Shown one piece after another: positions 6,513 to 20,761 of a stretch of 37,074 nt of DNA. The notes under the pieces are model-generated. The model made no database searches and was not told the DNA's origin. It saw only the letters and a program-made list of their open reading frames with translations. Positions within the stretch are counted from its first letter, which is position 1; each line of letters begins with the position of its first letter. This DNA is from Opitutales bacterium (GTDB lineage: Bacteria > Verrucomicrobiota > Verrucomicrobiia > Opitutales > Oceanipulchritudinaceae). Made by a program: the position numbers and the translations under genes. The stretch is from NCBI GenBank assembly GCA_020831525.1, contig JAFIGH010000049.1, positions 1 to 37,074 on the forward strand. The letters run 5' to 3'.

Positions 6513-6684
6513 GTTGGCGCCAGCCTTGCATGTCATCCGGCGGCGTCAACCGCATTGGGCTATCCGGTCGATTGACAGCGGCGGACTCACCGGGCATGCG
6601 TATCGTTCCAGCCCCGGTTCCGCGGCGCGACGCCCGTCCGCGCGGTCCGGGCCGCCGCGAATCCTCTGTGTCCCTTTCAAAGCC

Positions 6685-8058
6685 ATGCGAAAAGTAAAGA
6701 GCAAGAGTCTGCCGCACCGTCTCCGCGCCATGCTCAACCAGCAGAAACCCGGCGAGGTGAAAAAGGCACTCGAACACGTCCACCCGTCGGAGGCCGCCGA
6801 GGCGCTCATGCAGTTGCCGCGCTACCAGCTCATGAGCGCGCTCACGCAGGTCGCCATCCGCGACCAAGCGGAAATTTTCAGCTTTCTTCCGCTGGAAGTG
6901 CAGGTCGAGGTCATCAGCGAGCTGACGCAACGCGACGTCGTGCGTCTCGTCACCCACCTCTCCCACGACGAGCGGGCCGACCTCGTCGCCGAGCTGCCCG
7001 ACGCCCTCAAAGAGGCTATCATCCACAAGCTCGATCTCCGCGAACAGGAAGACATCCGCAAACTGGAAGCCTACGAGGAGGGCGAAATCGGGGCGATCAT
7101 GACGTCCGACTTCGCCGCCCTCGACCCGAACCTGACGGTCGAGCAGGCCATCGACAGCCTGCGCCGCCGCGCCGCCGATTCGGAGACCATCTACTACGCC
7201 TACGTTCTCGACCCCAACCGGCATCTCCTTGGTGTCATCACCCTCAAACGGCTGATCACCACCCCGTCCGACCGGCGTATCGCGGATATCATGACGCGCG
7301 ACCCCATCGTCTTGCACACGCGCGATCCGCAGGAAGAGGCCGTTCGCGTCCTCCAGCGCACGGACCTCATTGCCCTGCCCGTCCTCGACCGCGAGGACCG
7401 TATGGTCGGCATCGTCACCTACGACGACATCCAGGACGTCGCCGAGGAAGAGAGTACCGAGGACTTCCACCGCATGGGGGGGACCGGCGGCGACGGGACC
7501 GTCAACCTCAGTCTCGCCAACCCCTTCCAACTCATCCGCATGCGCCTGCCGTGGCTCATGGTCCTCGTCTTTGTGAATCTATTTTCCGGAGCGGGCATCG
7601 CCTTCTACGAAGCCACCATCGAAGCCGTTGTCGCGTTGGTGTTTTTCCTGCCGCTCCTCATCGCCAGCGGGGGCAACGCGGGATCGCAGTCCGCCACGCT
7701 CATGGTGCGCGCCATCGCCATCGGCGATGTGCAGCCGCGCGACTGGTTCCGCCTCCTGCGGCGTGAATTCCTCACCTCGCTTATCATGGGAGTGATGATG
7801 GGCGTGCTCATCGCCGCCATCGGCGTCTTCCGCGCCGATCAGGGGGTCGCCGTCGTCGTCGCCGCTACCATGATCTCCATCGTCATGGTGGGCAGCCTCA
7901 TCGGCATGCTCCTGCCGTTCATTCTCAACCGCCTCAAAATGGACCCCGCCACCGCCAGCGCCCCCCTCGTCACCTCCCTCTGCGACATCGCCGGCGTGCT
8001 CATCTACTTCGCCATCGCCACCGCCTACCTCAGCGAGCGCATCCCGGCGGCGGCGTGA
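6685..8058 (+). CDS. mgtE: MgtE-family magnesium transporter (copy 1)
   Basis: A Mg2+ channel/transporter of the inner membrane, 457 residues from the ATG at 6685. Domains in order: the helical MgtE N domain (about 1-130), a CBS pair (about 135-255; 'IGAIMTSDFAALDPNLTVEQAI', 'DIMTRDPIVLHTRDPQEEAVRVLQ', 'LPVLDREDRMVGIVTYDDI'), a connecting helix 'DVAEEESTEDFHRM', and five membrane helices (about 290-450) with the pore signature SGGNAGSQ (328-335) and the conserved pore aspartate in SLCDIAGVLIYF (Asp424). In this family the cytosolic domains bind Mg2+ and close the channel when internal Mg2+ is high. No M-box or other leader structure is seen upstream. It is divergent from hflK and paralogous to the copy at 16727-18076. 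Confidence 0.95.
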   Translation: MRKVKSKSLPHRLRAMLNQQKPGEVKKALEHVHPSEAAEALMQLPRYQLMSALTQVAIRDQAEIFSFLPLEVQVEVISELTQRDVVRLVTHLSHDERADLVAELPDALKEAIIHKLDLREQEDIRKLEAYEEGEIGAIMTSDFAALDPNLTVEQAIDSLRRRAADSETIYYAYVLDPNRHLLGVITLKRLITTPSDRRIADIMTRDPIVLHTRDPQEEAVRVLQRTDLIALPVLDREDRMVGIVTYDDIQDVAEEESTEDFHRMGGTGGDGTVNLSLANPFQLIRMRLPWLMVLVFVNLFSGAGIAFYEATIEAVVALVFFLPLLIASGGNAGSQSATLMVRAIAIGDVQPRDWFRLLRREFLTSLIMGVMMGVLIAAIGVFRADQGVAVVVAATMISIVMVGSLIGMLLPFILNRLKMDPATASAPLVTSLCDIAGVLIYFAIATAYLSERIPAAA

Positions 8059-8073
8059 GGGGTCAACGGCACC

Positions 8074-8131
8074 CGGATAAGCTTGGACCGCATAAAACGG
8101 TTGCTCCGCTCTTTGCTTACGGGCTTATCCG
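8074..8131. repeat. Inverted repeat downstream of mgtE copy 1
   Basis: Perfect 9-bp arms CGGATAAGC (8074-8082) and GCTTATCCG (8123-8131) are separated by 40 nt, starting 15 bases after the mgtE stop. It could fold in the mgtE 3' end. There is no downstream T-run, so a role as terminator is doubtful. Confidence 0.45.
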
Positions 8132-8198
8132 AGCGCCATTGGGGTGAAGAGCGTCGGCACCGAATCGAATGTAAAAGGTCGGTGATCTTGCTGTGGAC

Positions 8199-15692: not shown

Positions 15693-15854
15693 GTTTCTTG
15701 GGATGATTCTGAGGGGTGTATTCTCCGGTCCGGGAATGATTTTCACTGCAAATTGCAGCGAAGCGACTTCGGATCGCAATCGTTCCCGCCGGCCGGGTCA
15801 ATGCAAATGGTGGCTCAATGGGGCCCGGAGGGTGTGATTAAGAGCGCGGGGTAT

Positions 15855-15911
15855 GTGGAAGCGGCTTCCAGCCGCTTATTCCGAGTCAAAGCGGCAAGAT
15901 GCCGCTTCCAC
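15855..15911. repeat. Head-to-head REP pair, third subfamily
   Basis: Two hairpins in mirror orientation. The plus-strand one is GTGG-AAGCGGC-(TTCCA)-GCCGCTT (15855-15877); the minus-strand one is GTGG-AAGCGGC-(ATCTT)-GCCGCTT (15911-15889). The whole 57-bp element can also fold as one long hairpin, since the outer 11 bases are perfectly complementary. It sits between the stop of the outer-membrane gene (15967) and the start of the hydrolase-like gene (15692). Confidence 0.85.
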
Positions 15912-15966
15912 AATAAATCAACCCCGCACTTTTGATCGGACCCGCGCCCGGACAAGACCGGAGCTT

Positions 15967-16726: not shown

Positions 16727-18076
16727 TCAACCGCCGAGGCCGAGCCACCATGTGGCGATGCTGAAGTAGATGAGCACGCCGCAGATATCAGCAAGCGATG
16801 TGATCAGCGGGGCGCTCGCCGTGGCGGGATCGAGTTTGAGCTTCGTGAGGATGAAGGGCAGGAGCATGCCGATGAGGCTGCCGGTTAGAACCGTGAGGGT
16901 CATCGTCATGGATACGATCATGATGACCTCCGGTGCACGGAAGGTCGCGACGAGGGCGACGGCGCAGCCCATGACGACACCCATGACAAGGGAGATGCCG
17001 ACTTCCCGGCGCAGGAGGGAGAACCAGTCTCGCATGCGGACGTCGCCGGTCGCCAGTGCGCGCACCATGAGCGTGGCGGCCTGTGATCCGGCGTTGCCTC
17101 CGCTGTCGATGAGGAGCGGAAGGAAGAACACGAGCGCCACGACGGCTTCGATGGTGTCCTCGAAGTAGGCGATTCCGGCCCCGGAGAATATGTTGATGAA
17201 GACGAGAAGAAGAAGCCACGGGAGACGCTTGAGAAGGACTTGCGGGATGGTCGCGTCGCGCATCGCGAGAGTGGACAGGCCGGGTGCCGCCGCCATGCGG
17301 TGGAAGTCCTCGGTGCTGGCTTCTTCGGCGACATCGGCGAGGTCGTCGTGGGTGACGATACCGACCATTTTGCCCTCGCGGTCGTGCACGGGGAGGGCAA
17401 GGAGGTCGGCTTTGGCCAGTTCGCGCACGGCGGTTTCCTCAGGATCGCGCGTGAAGACGCTGATGACCGGTTTGCGCATGAAGTCGCCGACAACGGCGTC
17501 GGGCTTGGCGAGGATGAGCTGTTTCAGGGAAACAACGCCGACGAGCCGTCGTTCCTCGTCGAGGACATAGGCGTAGTAGATTGTCTCGGCGTCAGGTGCC
17601 TCGCGGCGCAACTGCTCGAGGGCCTCGCGCGCGGTGACGCCGCGCGGCAGGGAGGCGTAGTCGGACGTCATGATCGCGCCGATCGTGCCTTCGTCGTATC
17701 GGTCGAGCTTGCGGATGTCCTCGCGCTCCTTTTGGGCAAGCTTGCGCAGCACGGCCTCTTTTCGTTCCTCCGGCATCTCCGAGAGAAGGTCGACGCGTTC
17801 GTCGTGGGAGAGAACAGTGACCAACTCGGCGAGCGGCCCCTCTTCCATGAGAGCGGCGACGTCAAGCTGTTGCTCGAATGGAAGGAAGGAGAAGAGGTCG
17901 GCGCGCCGGCGCGCATCGACAAGCGCGAGCATCGCGTTGACCTCGAAGGTGCTGAACGCCTCCATTGCTTCGGCAATCACGGAGGGGTGGAGTTCTCCAA
18001 GAAGCTTTTTCAGTTCGCCGGCGTCCTGGGTGTCCAGGTATCGGCGCATGTGATTACGCAGGGTTTCTCTATTCAC
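16727..18076 (-). CDS. mgtE: MgtE-family magnesium transporter (copy 2)
   Basis: 449 residues from a GTG at 18076, chosen because GAGGTC sits at ideal distance (AAACGAGGTC-AATCA-GTG); the next ATG (18049) lacks one. Domain order is as in copy 1: N domain (about 1-125), CBS pair (about 130-250; 'IGAIMTSDYASLPRGVTAREAL', 'LPVHDREGKMVGIVTHDDLADVA'), plug helix 'EEASTEDFHRM', and five membrane helices with SGGNAGSQ (325-332) and the pore aspartate in SLADICGVLIYF (Asp420). The two copies are closely similar along their whole length but clearly diverged, so the duplication is old. The first 18-110 nt upstream of the start form a three-way-junction leader that covers the ribosome-binding site. A beta-barrel gene follows after 43 bp. 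Confidence 0.95.
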   Translation of the reverse strand: MNRETLRNHMRRYLDTQDAGELKKLLGELHPSVIAEAMEAFSTFEVNAMLALVDARRRADLFSFLPFEQQLDVAALMEEGPLAELVTVLSHDERVDLLSEMPEERKEAVLRKLAQKEREDIRKLDRYDEGTIGAIMTSDYASLPRGVTAREALEQLRREAPDAETIYYAYVLDEERRLVGVVSLKQLILAKPDAVVGDFMRKPVISVFTRDPEETAVRELAKADLLALPVHDREGKMVGIVTHDDLADVAEEASTEDFHRMAAAPGLSTLAMRDATIPQVLLKRLPWLLLLVFINIFSGAGIAYFEDTIEAVVALVFFLPLLIDSGGNAGSQAATLMVRALATGDVRMRDWFSLLRREVGISLVMGVVMGCAVALVATFRAPEVIMIVSMTMTLTVLTGSLIGMLLPFILTKLKLDPATASAPLITSLADICGVLIYFSIATWWLGLGG

Positions 18077-18081
18077 TGATT

Positions 18082-18172
18082 GACCTCGTTTGTATTTTAC
18101 GGCGGAAGGGCGATGCCTTCCGCTTGGTTGTGTTTTCGCCCGGTGCGGTGGTGCGGGCGGTCAAACGAGGTC
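18082..18172 (-). promoter_or_regulatory. Structured leader of mgtE copy 2: three-way junction sequestering the ribosome-binding site
   Basis: In the mRNA sense (minus strand) the closing helix P1 is a perfect 11-bp pair, GACCTCGTTTG (18172-18162) with CAAACGAGGTC (18092-18082). Inside are two hairpins. The first is CGCCCG/CGGGCG (18159-18154 and 18142-18137, 11-nt loop). The second is GCGGAAGG/CCTTCCGC (18123-18116 and 18109-18102, 6-nt loop). Linkers are 2, 13 and 9 nt, the longer two A-rich. The 3' strand of P1 contains the Shine-Dalgarno GAGG, seven bases before the GTG start, so forming P1 would block translation. I do not see the conserved M-box (ykoK) sequence. A Mg2+-responsive translational switch is inferred from the gene it controls. 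Confidence 0.65.
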
Positions 18173-18211
18173 TTCTGTGCCAGCTTCCGGAGAAGGCGGG
18201 CGTCAGCGAAC

Positions 18212-18252
18212 CCGGTTGTCCACCCGTGCCGCCGTGTCGGCGCGACAACCGG
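18212..18252. repeat. Second inverted repeat upstream of mgtE copy 2
   Basis: CCGGTTGTC (18212-18220) and GACAACCGG (18244-18252) are perfect 9-bp arms around a 23-nt loop that itself holds GCCG/CGGC. It lies 39 nt upstream of the three-way junction on the mgtE side and 208 bp before the ATPase start on the other side. It could be part of the mgtE leader or an operator in the divergent promoter region. The rest of 18253-18460 shows no gene; a run of eight T at 18395-18402 follows only a poor stem. Confidence 0.45.
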
Positions 18253-18460
18253 TGCGGGTATGCGCGGGCAACGTCCTGATTCTAGGCCCAGGGTCGCCGT
18301 CCATCGCGCATGTCTCCTTTCCGGTTGGGTGGTTTGTGTTCATCGAAGGGCAGAAAAAGATGCGGTTTCGGAGGCCGGTCAAGGGCAAAGGCCGTTTTTT
18401 TTGCGGATTGCATGAAGGCGGCGCAAGGTGTTGGATTGTTGTCGAAACGAGTTTGAGGTA

Positions 18461-20761
18461 ATGCGACCGATAAAACGGAATCAAAATAAAGGAAGCGACA
18501 GCGCGGCGGACAGCCATGCCCGCTGGATTCCGGCACTGGCGGATTTTCTGCGGCAGACGGCGCGCGCGCAGGCGGTGGAGTGGGACGACGCCCGCACGGA
18601 GATCTCCGTGGCGACGCTGGGCCGGGTGGACGAAGCGGTCCTGCGCCAGTGCCTTGAGGCGACGCTCGCGGCGGCGGACGATCCCGCTCGGGTGGTCGGC
18701 GGCGGGGTGCCGGTGCAGCCGGGCCTGCGGTTGCGCCGGACGGAGGACAGGGTGTCGCTCGAGAAGGAACGCGGTTGCGAAGAGGTGGCGACGCTATGGA
18801 CGTGGCGCCGCATTCCGTGGCCGACGCCCGCCGAGGTCGCCGGACTGGACGCGGGCGAGGAGGCGGAGTGGAGGGTCCTCGCCGCGCTCGCGGGGACGTG
18901 CGGTGTTCTCGGCCTTGCGGGCTTTGCGGCGGATGTGAGCGGCGCAGGCCCGCCGTGGCTTGCGCCCGCGCTCTACATAGCGGCGATGACCGCGGGTGGT
19001 TGGGACGCCGCGAAGGATGCGCTGCCCAATCTGCCGAAGGGCAAACTCGACATCCACTTTCTCATGCTCGCGGTGGCGGTCGGGGCGAGCTTTATCGGAG
19101 CGTTCGGCGAAGGGGCGCTGCTCCTCTTTCTATTTTCGTTCGCAGGGGCGCTGGAGCATTTCGCCCTCTACCGCACGCGGCGGGAGATCCACGCGCTTTT
19201 CCGCGCCGCGCCCAAGACGGCCACACTTGTCGATTCCGGCGGTGCGGAGCGTGTCGTGCCCGTGGAACAGGTTGCGCCGGGCGACCGCGTGCTCGTGCGC
19301 CCGGGCGACACCTTTCCGGTCGACGGCATGGTTCTCGCGGGCGAGAGCGCAGCGGATGAGTCGTCTCTCACGGGCGAAGCGCATCCGGTTTCGAAGCGGA
19401 CGGGTGACGAGGTCTACAGCGGAACAGCCAACCTGTGGGGCGCGGTGGAGGCGAGTTGTATCCGCCCCGCCAGTGAGAGCGCCTTGCAGAAGGTGATCCG
19501 CCTTATTCAGGAGGCGCGGCACCTCCGTGCGCCCAGCCAGCGGTTCACCGATAAATTTGGTCCGCGCTACACCGTCGGCGTCCTCGCGGTGACGACACTC
19601 ATGTTTTTTGTGTGGTGGCAGGGTTTCGGGGTGGCACCGTTTCTCAATGTCGAAGGGGAGGGGCAGACGCGCTATTCCGCCTTCTACCGGGCGATGACGC
19701 TACTCGTCGTGGCGAGTCCCTGCGCTCTCGTTCTCTCCATTCCCTCGGCGATCCTCGCGGCCATTGCGTGGGGAGCGCGGCACGGCATCCTCTTCCGCGG
19801 CGGCGCTGCCATCGAGCAACTCGCCGCGGTGGACGTCGTGGCGCTCGACAAAACGGGTACGCTGACAACCGGTGACCTGCGGGTGGTGTCGGTGGAGAGT
19901 TTTCCGCCCGGTAGCGAGCGCGATGTCGCGGAAATCGCCTTCACACTGGAGCGGCGGGCGAGCCATCCCATCGCCCGCGCCATACAGCGCTACGGCGAGA
20001 CGGAGGACCTGCAACCGCGTGAATTTGCGGATTTTCGTTCCCTCACGGGCAAAGGCGTGCGCGCGGAGGTCGGTAGGAGCACGTGCCTGCTCGGGCGGCG
20101 CGAGTTGTTCGATGGCGGGCCGCTGGCGGAGTGGGCGCGGGACCTGCCCGACCCGCCGCCCGGGCTCTCCGAAGTGTGGTTCCTGCACGGCGCGCTCGTC
20201 GGGCGGATCCTCCTTGAAGACATGGTGCGCGACGAGTCGGCGGATGTGTTGCGCCGACTGCGGGAAGCGGGGCTGCGTACCGTAATGCTCACGGGCGACC
20301 GCGTCGGCAGCGCCGAGGCTGTGGCGGAGCGGCTCGGTCTCGACGAGGTGCGCGCGGGGCTAAGCCCGGAAGGCAAGGTCGAGGCCGTGCGTGGACTGAC
20401 CGCGGGCGGGAAACGGGTCGCCATGGTGGGCGACGGCGTGAACGACGCTCCGTGCCTTGCCGCCGCCGATGTCGCCGTGGCCATGGGCGCGCGGGGCAGC
20501 GACGCCGCCCTTGAGCAGAGCGACGTCGTCCTCATGAACGACCGCATCGAGAATTTCTTCGAGGCCTTCCGACTCAGCCGCCGCGCCCGCCGTGTCATCC
20601 GGCAGAATATCGTTATCTCCCTTGGTACCATCGTTGTCATGGTGGCCGCCGCCGTCTTCGGGATCGTGCCCATTACCCTCGGCGTCCTTGCGCACGAGGG
20701 CTCAACCGTAATCGTGTGCCTCAACAGCATGCGCCTCCTGCGCGGCGGCGTGCGTCGTTGA
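18461..20761 (+). CDS. P1B-type heavy-metal translocating ATPase (P1B-4-like metal exporter)
   Basis: 766 residues from the ATG at 18461 (GAGGTA directly before it is rather close; GTG at 18428 is an alternative). An ATP-driven inner-membrane metal pump. Seen in order: an N-terminal 110-residue domain without any CxxC, membrane helices from about residue 135, the actuator motif SLTGEAHPV, the metal-binding SPC motif in helix 6 (419-421), the phosphorylated Asp463 in DKTGTLT, the HP motif in RRASHPIA, LTGDR, GDGVNDAP, and a last helix with HEGSTVIVCLNSMRLL (His745). The SPC plus HEGxT pair is the known mark of the P1B-4 group (CoaT/CtpD), which exports Co2+, Fe2+, Zn2+ or Ni2+; Cu and Zn/Cd pumps carry CPC. 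The substrate cannot be fixed further. It is divergent from mgtE copy 2 over 384 bp. Confidence 0.92.
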   Translation: MRPIKRNQNKGSDSAADSHARWIPALADFLRQTARAQAVEWDDARTEISVATLGRVDEAVLRQCLEATLAAADDPARVVGGGVPVQPGLRLRRTEDRVSLEKERGCEEVATLWTWRRIPWPTPAEVAGLDAGEEAEWRVLAALAGTCGVLGLAGFAADVSGAGPPWLAPALYIAAMTAGGWDAAKDALPNLPKGKLDIHFLMLAVAVGASFIGAFGEGALLLFLFSFAGALEHFALYRTRREIHALFRAAPKTATLVDSGGAERVVPVEQVAPGDRVLVRPGDTFPVDGMVLAGESAADESSLTGEAHPVSKRTGDEVYSGTANLWGAVEASCIRPASESALQKVIRLIQEARHLRAPSQRFTDKFGPRYTVGVLAVTTLMFFVWWQGFGVAPFLNVEGEGQTRYSAFYRAMTLLVVASPCALVLSIPSAILAAIAWGARHGILFRGGAAIEQLAAVDVVALDKTGTLTTGDLRVVSVESFPPGSERDVAEIAFTLERRASHPIARAIQRYGETEDLQPREFADFRSLTGKGVRAEVGRSTCLLGRRELFDGGPLAEWARDLPDPPPGLSEVWFLHGALVGRILLEDMVRDESADVLRRLREAGLRTVMLTGDRVGSAEAVAERLGLDEVRAGLSPEGKVEAVRGLTAGGKRVAMVGDGVNDAPCLAAADVAVAMGARGSDAALEQSDVVLMNDRIENFFEAFRLSRRARRVIRQNIVISLGTIVVMVAAAVFGIVPITLGVLAHEGSTVIVCLNSMRLLRGGVRR

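Follow-up and report, generated by a model that had tools for sequence, protein, structure and literature searches.

The locus analysed here raises the question of how an Opitutales bacterium (genome G000) controls its second mgtE gene, and of which part of the leader of this gene would act as sensor. An earlier note on the window (the whole stretch of 37,074 nt that was analysed, contig C106 of G000) had described a three-way junction closing over the Shine-Dalgarno (SD) sequence of mgtE copy 2, and had proposed the junction as a possible new regulatory RNA. The gene and the elements of the fold are the following.

16727 to 18076, minus strand: mgtE copy 2, 449 aa, GTG start at 18076, with the domains MgtE_N, two CBS stretches and MgtE.
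18162 to 18172, minus strand: region 3, the 5' strand of helix P1 (anti-SD strand), GACCTCGTTTG.
18082 to 18092, minus strand: region 4, the 3' strand of P1, CAAACGAGGTC, containing the mgtE copy 2 SD, GAGGT, at 18087-18083.
18137 to 18159, minus strand: P2 hairpin of 6 bp, CGCCCG/CGGGCG, pairing 18159-18154 with 18142-18137.
18102 to 18123, minus strand: P3 hairpin of 8 bp, GCGGAAGG/CCTTCCGC, pairing 18123-18116 with 18109-18102.

Comparison at the protein level supports the GTG at 18076 as the start of mgtE copy 2, the N-terminal length being equal in the 60%-identical protein of locus L012 (29 residues before HPSVIAE in both). A divergent P-type ATPase gene (18461-20761; E1-E2_ATPase and hydrolase domains) adjoins mgtE copy 2, and no metal-binding domain was reported by Pfam in its product.

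The three helices were found exactly as the earlier note had drawn them. P1, a perfect 11-bp helix (GACCTCGTTTG, 18172-18162, with CAAACGAGGTC, 18092-18082), P2 and P3 together make up the structure predicted for the 97-mer as MFE and also as centroid (-41.6 kcal/mol; z -7.88, with 0 of 200 shuffles as stable), and the same structure still forms in a 261-nt fold. The SD at 18087-18083 sits in the 3' arm of P1, as claimed, and lies 6 nt before the GTG, not seven. The mgtE copy 2 SD is very probably masked by the leader structure, and the predicted fold supports the translational off-state that had been proposed. The fold as a whole ranked second when 97-nt windows were scanned on the two strands of the 37-kb window (4934 in all, dinucleotide-corrected). 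As for P1 alone, 28 perfect repeats of 11 bp or more with arms 20-100 nt apart, some of them nested, are present in 413.5 kb of G000, so that P1 by itself is unremarkable genome-wide. Conservation, and not the rarity of P1, is what counts. The P1 arm word CAAACGAGGTC occurs six times in G000, two of these occurrences being P1 itself. A mobile or repeated element was considered and rejected, no second copy of the leader being present in G000 (other matches, E of at least 0.35). On the plus strand, the P3 hairpin followed by a T-rich stretch (18101-18124) scores as terminator-like; it faces transcription antisense to mgtE.

Other structures were observed in the window. Its strongest hairpin after correction for composition is a 24-nt inverted repeat between ORFs at 15854-15912 (TGTGGAAGCGGC.../...GCCGCTTCCACA, 88%), which resembles REP-type or terminator hairpins; sampling about 376 kb of G000 gave no second copy. 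A long imperfect hairpin (8056-8152, ...GGCGCTCGGATAAGC...GCTTATCCGGGTGCC...) lies immediately downstream of mgtE copy 1. Copies of it with 79-80% similarity are present in L075 (contig C54) and in L062 (contig C87), and it is therefore probably a dispersed repeat. A Pro-rich ORF of 33 codons (MRIVPAPVPRRDARPRGPGRRESSVSLSKPCEK and a stop codon; 6596-6697), without SD, overlaps the start of mgtE copy 1 (ATG 6685) and may have arisen by chance in GC-rich DNA.

Covariance searches were run with the M-box (RF00380) and with all Rfam models. In agreement with the earlier note, no M-box was matched in the window at the gathering threshold, nor in 17950-18500 at E up to 10. At the gathering threshold Rfam gave nothing in the window except an RNase P RNA located elsewhere (bacterial class A, 1996-2372), and at E up to 10 it gave four low-scoring, unrelated matches. 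The M-box was likewise absent at E 0.01 from 89 genomes (G000 plus 88 related ones), 2 of 14 control genomes being positive. A covariance model of the junction leader, R1, was built from one sequence given twice and run on 273 genomes with a cut-off of E 1. Six matched, among them G000; the remaining five matches (E 0.0022-0.57), read as sequence and, for the two best, with a list of ORFs, look like unrelated hairpins, although chance is not proven. No convincing relative was found in the 272 other genomes. Over 34 sources R1 retrieved itself only, and on L079 (the leader of genome G799, which holds the closest mgtE copy 2 ortholog found, with 66% identity) and 11 other orthologous loci it gave no match at E up to 10, and the Balneolaceae-related leaders were not recovered either.

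Close orthologs of mgtE copy 2 are scarce. At strict cut-offs they were detected at class level in 2 of 384 genomes (G000 itself and G006), at phylum level in 3 of 387 (G000, G006 and G799), among relatives of G799 in 2 of 288 (G799 itself and one other), and among relatives of the Balneolaceae genome G849 in 9 of 293 (G849 included). Named relatives are those of a Verrucomicrobiales MAG (L012, 60%), a Balneolaceae MAG (L013, 54%) and a Verrucomicrobia MAG (L014, 49%). In an MgtE tree, which left out L082, G000 copy 2 and G799 are sisters (support 97/96), and four Balneolaceae-related proteins form one clade (100/99). The genes of these four share with G000 and G799 an element absent from the earlier note, an upstream ORF (uORF).

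18314 to 18319, minus strand: strong SD of the uORF, AAGGAG, 9 nt before the ATG; part of AACCGGAAAGGAG, which is identical in the G799 leader.
18203 to 18304, minus strand: uORF of 33 aa, MDGDPGPRIRTLPAHTRTGCRADTAARVDNRVR and a stop codon, with a head MD-x(1,2)-P-G common to five orthologous leaders.
18287 to 18304, minus strand: codons 1-6 of the uORF, ATG GAC GGC GAC CCT GGG, the acidic-proline head and proposed ribosome drop-off site.

The reading frame of the uORF is open further upstream in G000, to 18517, and likewise in G799; hence, the start was placed by means of the SD and the shared head. An alternative start, ATGCGC (9 aa), was rejected, as it lies only 2 nt from the SD. The G799 leader reads AACCGGAAAGGAG then ATGGACGAAGATCCTGGAAGT, and that of G000 (L016) AACCGGAAAGGAG...ATGGACGGCGACCCTGGG; translation gives MDEDPGSSRLFVTVTNRVPPGKPVRVVALR and a stop in the former and MDGDPGPRIRTLPAHTRTGCRADTAARVDNRVR and a stop in the latter. 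The heads are MDGDPGP in G000, MDEDPGSS in G799, and MDDLPGSC..., MDEPGSYC..., MDEPGSCF... and MDEPGSCR... in the four Balneolaceae-related leaders; L092 has a partial form, MDESSS. The acidic residues and proline are D2, D4 and P5 in G000; the five other heads have D2 together with E3 or D3, and their proline is P4 or P5. Each of the six heads has Pro-Gly after its acidic residues, and in five of them Ser comes next. Since the heads differ at third codon positions and by one extra in-frame codon (MDEPGS / MDEDPGS / MDDLPGS / MDGDPGP), they appear to be under coding constraint. Defined strictly as ATG-GAY-NNN(1-2)-CCN-GGN, the motif was present in 6 of 103 mgtE upstream stretches, all six within the clade of this MgtE; these stretches, oriented by hand from match tables, represent about 101 distinct genes (L082/L087 and L096/L152 appear to be duplicates) and include one, L146, of only 184 bases. 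Its background is 2 occurrences in 752,862 strand-nt of G000, or about 0.001 per 350-nt leader, one of the two in a short ORF. On these comparisons, we hold it highly probable that the uORF is conserved among orthologous leaders.

Six of the 14 MgtE rows in the two sister groups carry the uORF, one has the partial form (L092) and seven, mgtE copy 1 of G000 among them, are without it; therefore, losses of the uORF or two gains are needed. An SD precedes it in two of the six leaders (G000 and G799), the four Balneolaceae-related uORFs having none. When L016 and L079 are compared, the uORF tail shows no conservation (486 of 500 shuffles equally good). A consensus promoter was not found upstream of the G000 leader; in G799 a 10-of-12 promoter match lies about 76 nt upstream of the uORF. 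Upstream of mgtE in L094, the sequence AAA GAC AGC AAC GGC AGC TAC TGC (xDSNGSYC, no start codon) was noticed by eye; it is possibly a decayed uORF.

The SD helix was compared in seven leaders, namely the six uORF carriers (L016, L079 and L088-L091) and the partial form L092. In each of them the strand after the uORF stop can pair with the mgtE SD region. When the segment from the uORF stop to the SD was shuffled 250 times, pairing as high was reached by 0 shuffles for L016, 1 for L079, 8 for L088, 9 for L089, 9 for L090 and 0 for L092, whereas L091 was ordinary (87); the helix thus exceeds shuffles in six of the seven leaders (Fisher 1.6e-6, over rows that are not independent). The post-stop leaders of G000 and G799 can be aligned (0 of 500 shuffles as good), the P2 core and the linker after it among the aligned parts. 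The SD helix of G799, CCGTTTTCGACC/GGTCGAAAATGG (L079 1395-1406/1481-1492), includes the start codon, and so its register is shifted with respect to G000. Compensatory change in P1 among orthologs, which the earlier note had named as evidence to look for, could be sought in this one homologous leader: GTTT/AAAC in G000 against GGTT/AACC in G799 is a single such change in an alignment read by hand, which is suggestive and does not amount to a covariation test. Two inner hairpins were found elsewhere in L079 only, with a different P3; in the five other leaders of the uORF type the SD helix is simple. These comparisons do not support the junction itself as the sensor in the form proposed; the leader peptide, its uORF common to six leaders, is the likely sensor.

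A second pairing can form in the G000 leader, involving two further regions.

18244 to 18252, minus strand: region 1, CCGGTTGTC, within the uORF, complementary to 18220-18212 (1:2 hairpin).
18209 to 18226, minus strand: region 2, where the uORF ends (3' part); it can form 16 bp with 18172-18154 (-23.1 kcal/mol), a pairing that would disrupt P1 and P2.

Duplex 2:3 has -23.1 kcal/mol, against -16.8 kcal/mol for P1 alone. On transcripts ending just before the SD strand, pairing of the anti-SD strand with the 3' part of the uORF was computed as 0.80 in L016, 0.63 in L088, 0.72 in L089, 0.63 in L090, 0.79 in L091, 0.25 in L079 and 0.49 in L092. With a ribosome on the uORF stop this value dropped to 0.00 in L016, and in L079, L089, L090 and L091 it did not exceed 0.03; it remained at 0.67 in L088 and 0.45 in L092. 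With the ribosome at codon 6, pairing as high was seen in 0 of 250 codon shuffles for L016, 1 for L088, 6 for L089 and 9 for L091; it was weak in L090 (46 of 250) and no better than codon shuffles in L079 (125 of 250) and L092 (105 of 250). Hence, 2:3 beats codon shuffles in four of the seven leaders (Fisher 1.9e-4, rows again not independent), and in three of these four it is abolished by a ribosome at the stop. In the full G000 leader at equilibrium, the SD was closed for every ribosome position (0.00-0.01 open). An equilibrium model of ribosome position therefore fails for this leader, and a switch would have to be kinetic, set during transcription. The pattern of an SD open early and closed late was obtained at equilibrium in L088 and L091 only.

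The recurrence of the uORF head in orthologs, the sequestration of the SD and the 2:3 alternative of the G000 leader, all three shown by computation, can be joined by analogy with enteric leaders. We consider it probable that the mgtE copy 2 leader is a translation switch of the MgtL/MgtQ kind, with the peptide and not the junction as sensor, and Mg2+ would likely be sensed by ribosome drop-off. We infer that the leader is transcribed and that a ribosome initiates on the uORF, the first codons of which encode Met-Asp-Gly-Asp-Pro-Gly. When Mg2+ is plentiful, the uORF would be read to its end and the ribosome would cover region 2; region 3 would then pair with region 4, forming P1 capped by P2 and P3, and mgtE would be off. 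Under scarce Mg2+, the ribosome would be destabilised by the acidic-proline start and drop off early, leaving region 2 free to capture region 3 during transcription, so that the SD would stay open and the importer would be made.

In the case of MgtL, which precedes the Mg2+ importer gene mgtA of E. coli and Salmonella, ribosomes are described to dissociate at low Mg2+ on the EPDP sequence (Glu2, Asp4), and the proline matters (PMC11282234). The G000 uORF resembles it in the acidic-proline head after the start and in its place before an importer gene; as reported, the output of MgtL is Rho-dependent termination and not SD masking, and the transporter belongs to another family (PMC11282234, PMC11552253). 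Beyond the type of head, no sequence kinship between MgtL and the G000 uORF is evident. Salmonella mgtQ is described as having a strong SD, Asp2, Pro4 and Glu5, with 2:3 versus 3:4 stems controlling the mgtB ribosome-binding site; Asp2 and Glu5 control mgtB, whereas ribosome destabilisation itself was not demonstrated in that study (PMC8092293). The likeness to mgtQ, as described there, consists of a short ORF with strong SD and early acidic codons before a Mg2+ transporter, and of stems, predicted in the case of G000, that exclude each other (1:2/3:4 versus 2:3), 3:4 masking the transporter ribosome-binding site (PMC8092293). In G000 the short ORF lies at 18304-18203 on the minus strand with AAGGAG at 9 nt, the first codons contain D2, D4 and P5, and 2:3 is above shuffles in 4 of 7 leaders, yet the G000 SD is closed at equilibrium. 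The parts of the G000 leader thus correspond to those of mgtQ and are arranged alike, but stand before MgtE. The two differ in length (8 aa for mgtQ, 23-33 aa in the mgtE leaders), in that mgtQ is intergenic within an operon and its target is the P-type ATPase MgtB, not MgtE, and in that 2:3 is the more stable form in mgtQ (-16.4 versus -12.26 kcal/mol) whereas P1-P3 wins at equilibrium in G000 (PMC8092293 for mgtQ).

Among structured mgtE leaders, the motif SRC-65-1 of Thioalkalivibrio also places the SD and the start codon at a stem base; it has been reported from Thioalkalivibrio only, and its P4 is large and imperfect, with numerous nucleotides conserved in the motif and no mention of a uORF (PMC11109978). 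The M-box is likewise a Mg2+-responsive leader of mgtE-type genes, and the M. tuberculosis M-box with uORFs is described as having anti-SD/anti-anti-SD pairing around a uORF (PMC12810186); the G000 leader differs in having no M-box aptamer, none being found in the 89 related genomes either. A report of a uORF of this kind before mgtE was not found in the literature available under CC0, CC BY and CC BY-SA.

Other explanations have to be weighed against the peptide switch. If the junction bound Mg2+ or another metal and thereby stabilised P1, the uORF would be incidental; the great stability of the junction, its A-rich linkers and the homologous post-stop leader of G799, where two inner hairpins again stand over the SD and the P2 core and linker align, speak for such a riboswitch. 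Beyond G799, however, no conserved junction was seen, R1 missing L079 itself, the other orthologous leaders and the 272 other genomes; the simple SD helix of five other uORF-type leaders and the recurring MD-x-PG head, which a riboswitch leaves unexplained, make this reading distinctly unlikely. Control of Rho-dependent termination by the uORF, as in E. coli MgtL, with the SD helix setting basal translation only, would agree with the action of MgtL and corL via Rho (PMC11282234, PMC11552253) and with a P1 too stable for a ribosome to open at equilibrium in G000. We regard it as unlikely, because SD sequestration above chance in six of seven leaders and anti-SD/uORF pairing in four of seven would be superfluous for a pure transcription mechanism.

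The head might also be an arrest signal for a cue other than Mg2+ (charged tRNA-Pro, the state of an ABC-F factor, polyamines) acting through the SD helix. Pro-Gly after acidic residues in six of six heads and Ser in five of six are consistent with this, as are the reports that, in the Salmonella mgtCBRU operon, leader ORFs of the MgtP/MgtM type answer to other signals (PMC8092293) and that EttA acts on such heads (PMC11282234); the downstream gene belongs, however, to a Mg2+ transporter family, and Mg2+ sensitivity is documented for acidic-proline heads, so that we consider it very unlikely. Finally, GC-rich DNA, the 28 P1-type repeats in 413 kb and the absence of the elements from most clade members of the order would fit chance hairpins with a chance short ORF, but head and SD helix recur in orthologs from other genomes; as for an RNA thermometer without metal sensing, a fold of -41.6 kcal/mol is in our judgement too stable for a usual one. 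Chance or a thermometer is highly improbable.

Acidic-proline destabilisation of the ribosome is already known as a Mg2+ sensor in MgtL, with a related form in mgtQ, in enteric bacteria. We hold it an evenly balanced matter whether the peptide switch proposed here represents a class of Mg2+-sensing leader peptides not described before, which has the head M-D-[E/D/G]-(x)-P-G-S and controls MgtE importers, probably in two phyla (Verrucomicrobiota-like and Balneolaceae-related), drop-off deciding which of the two, uORF or mgtE SD, captures the anti-SD strand. If so, recruitment of the translating ribosome to sense Mg2+ would extend beyond Enterobacteria and to an unrelated transporter family, and the same chemical kind of uORF before MgtE in distant bacteria would suggest either great age or convergence. 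The uORF would supply a Mg2+ sensor where the M-box was not found, in the form of a short, testable head sequence.
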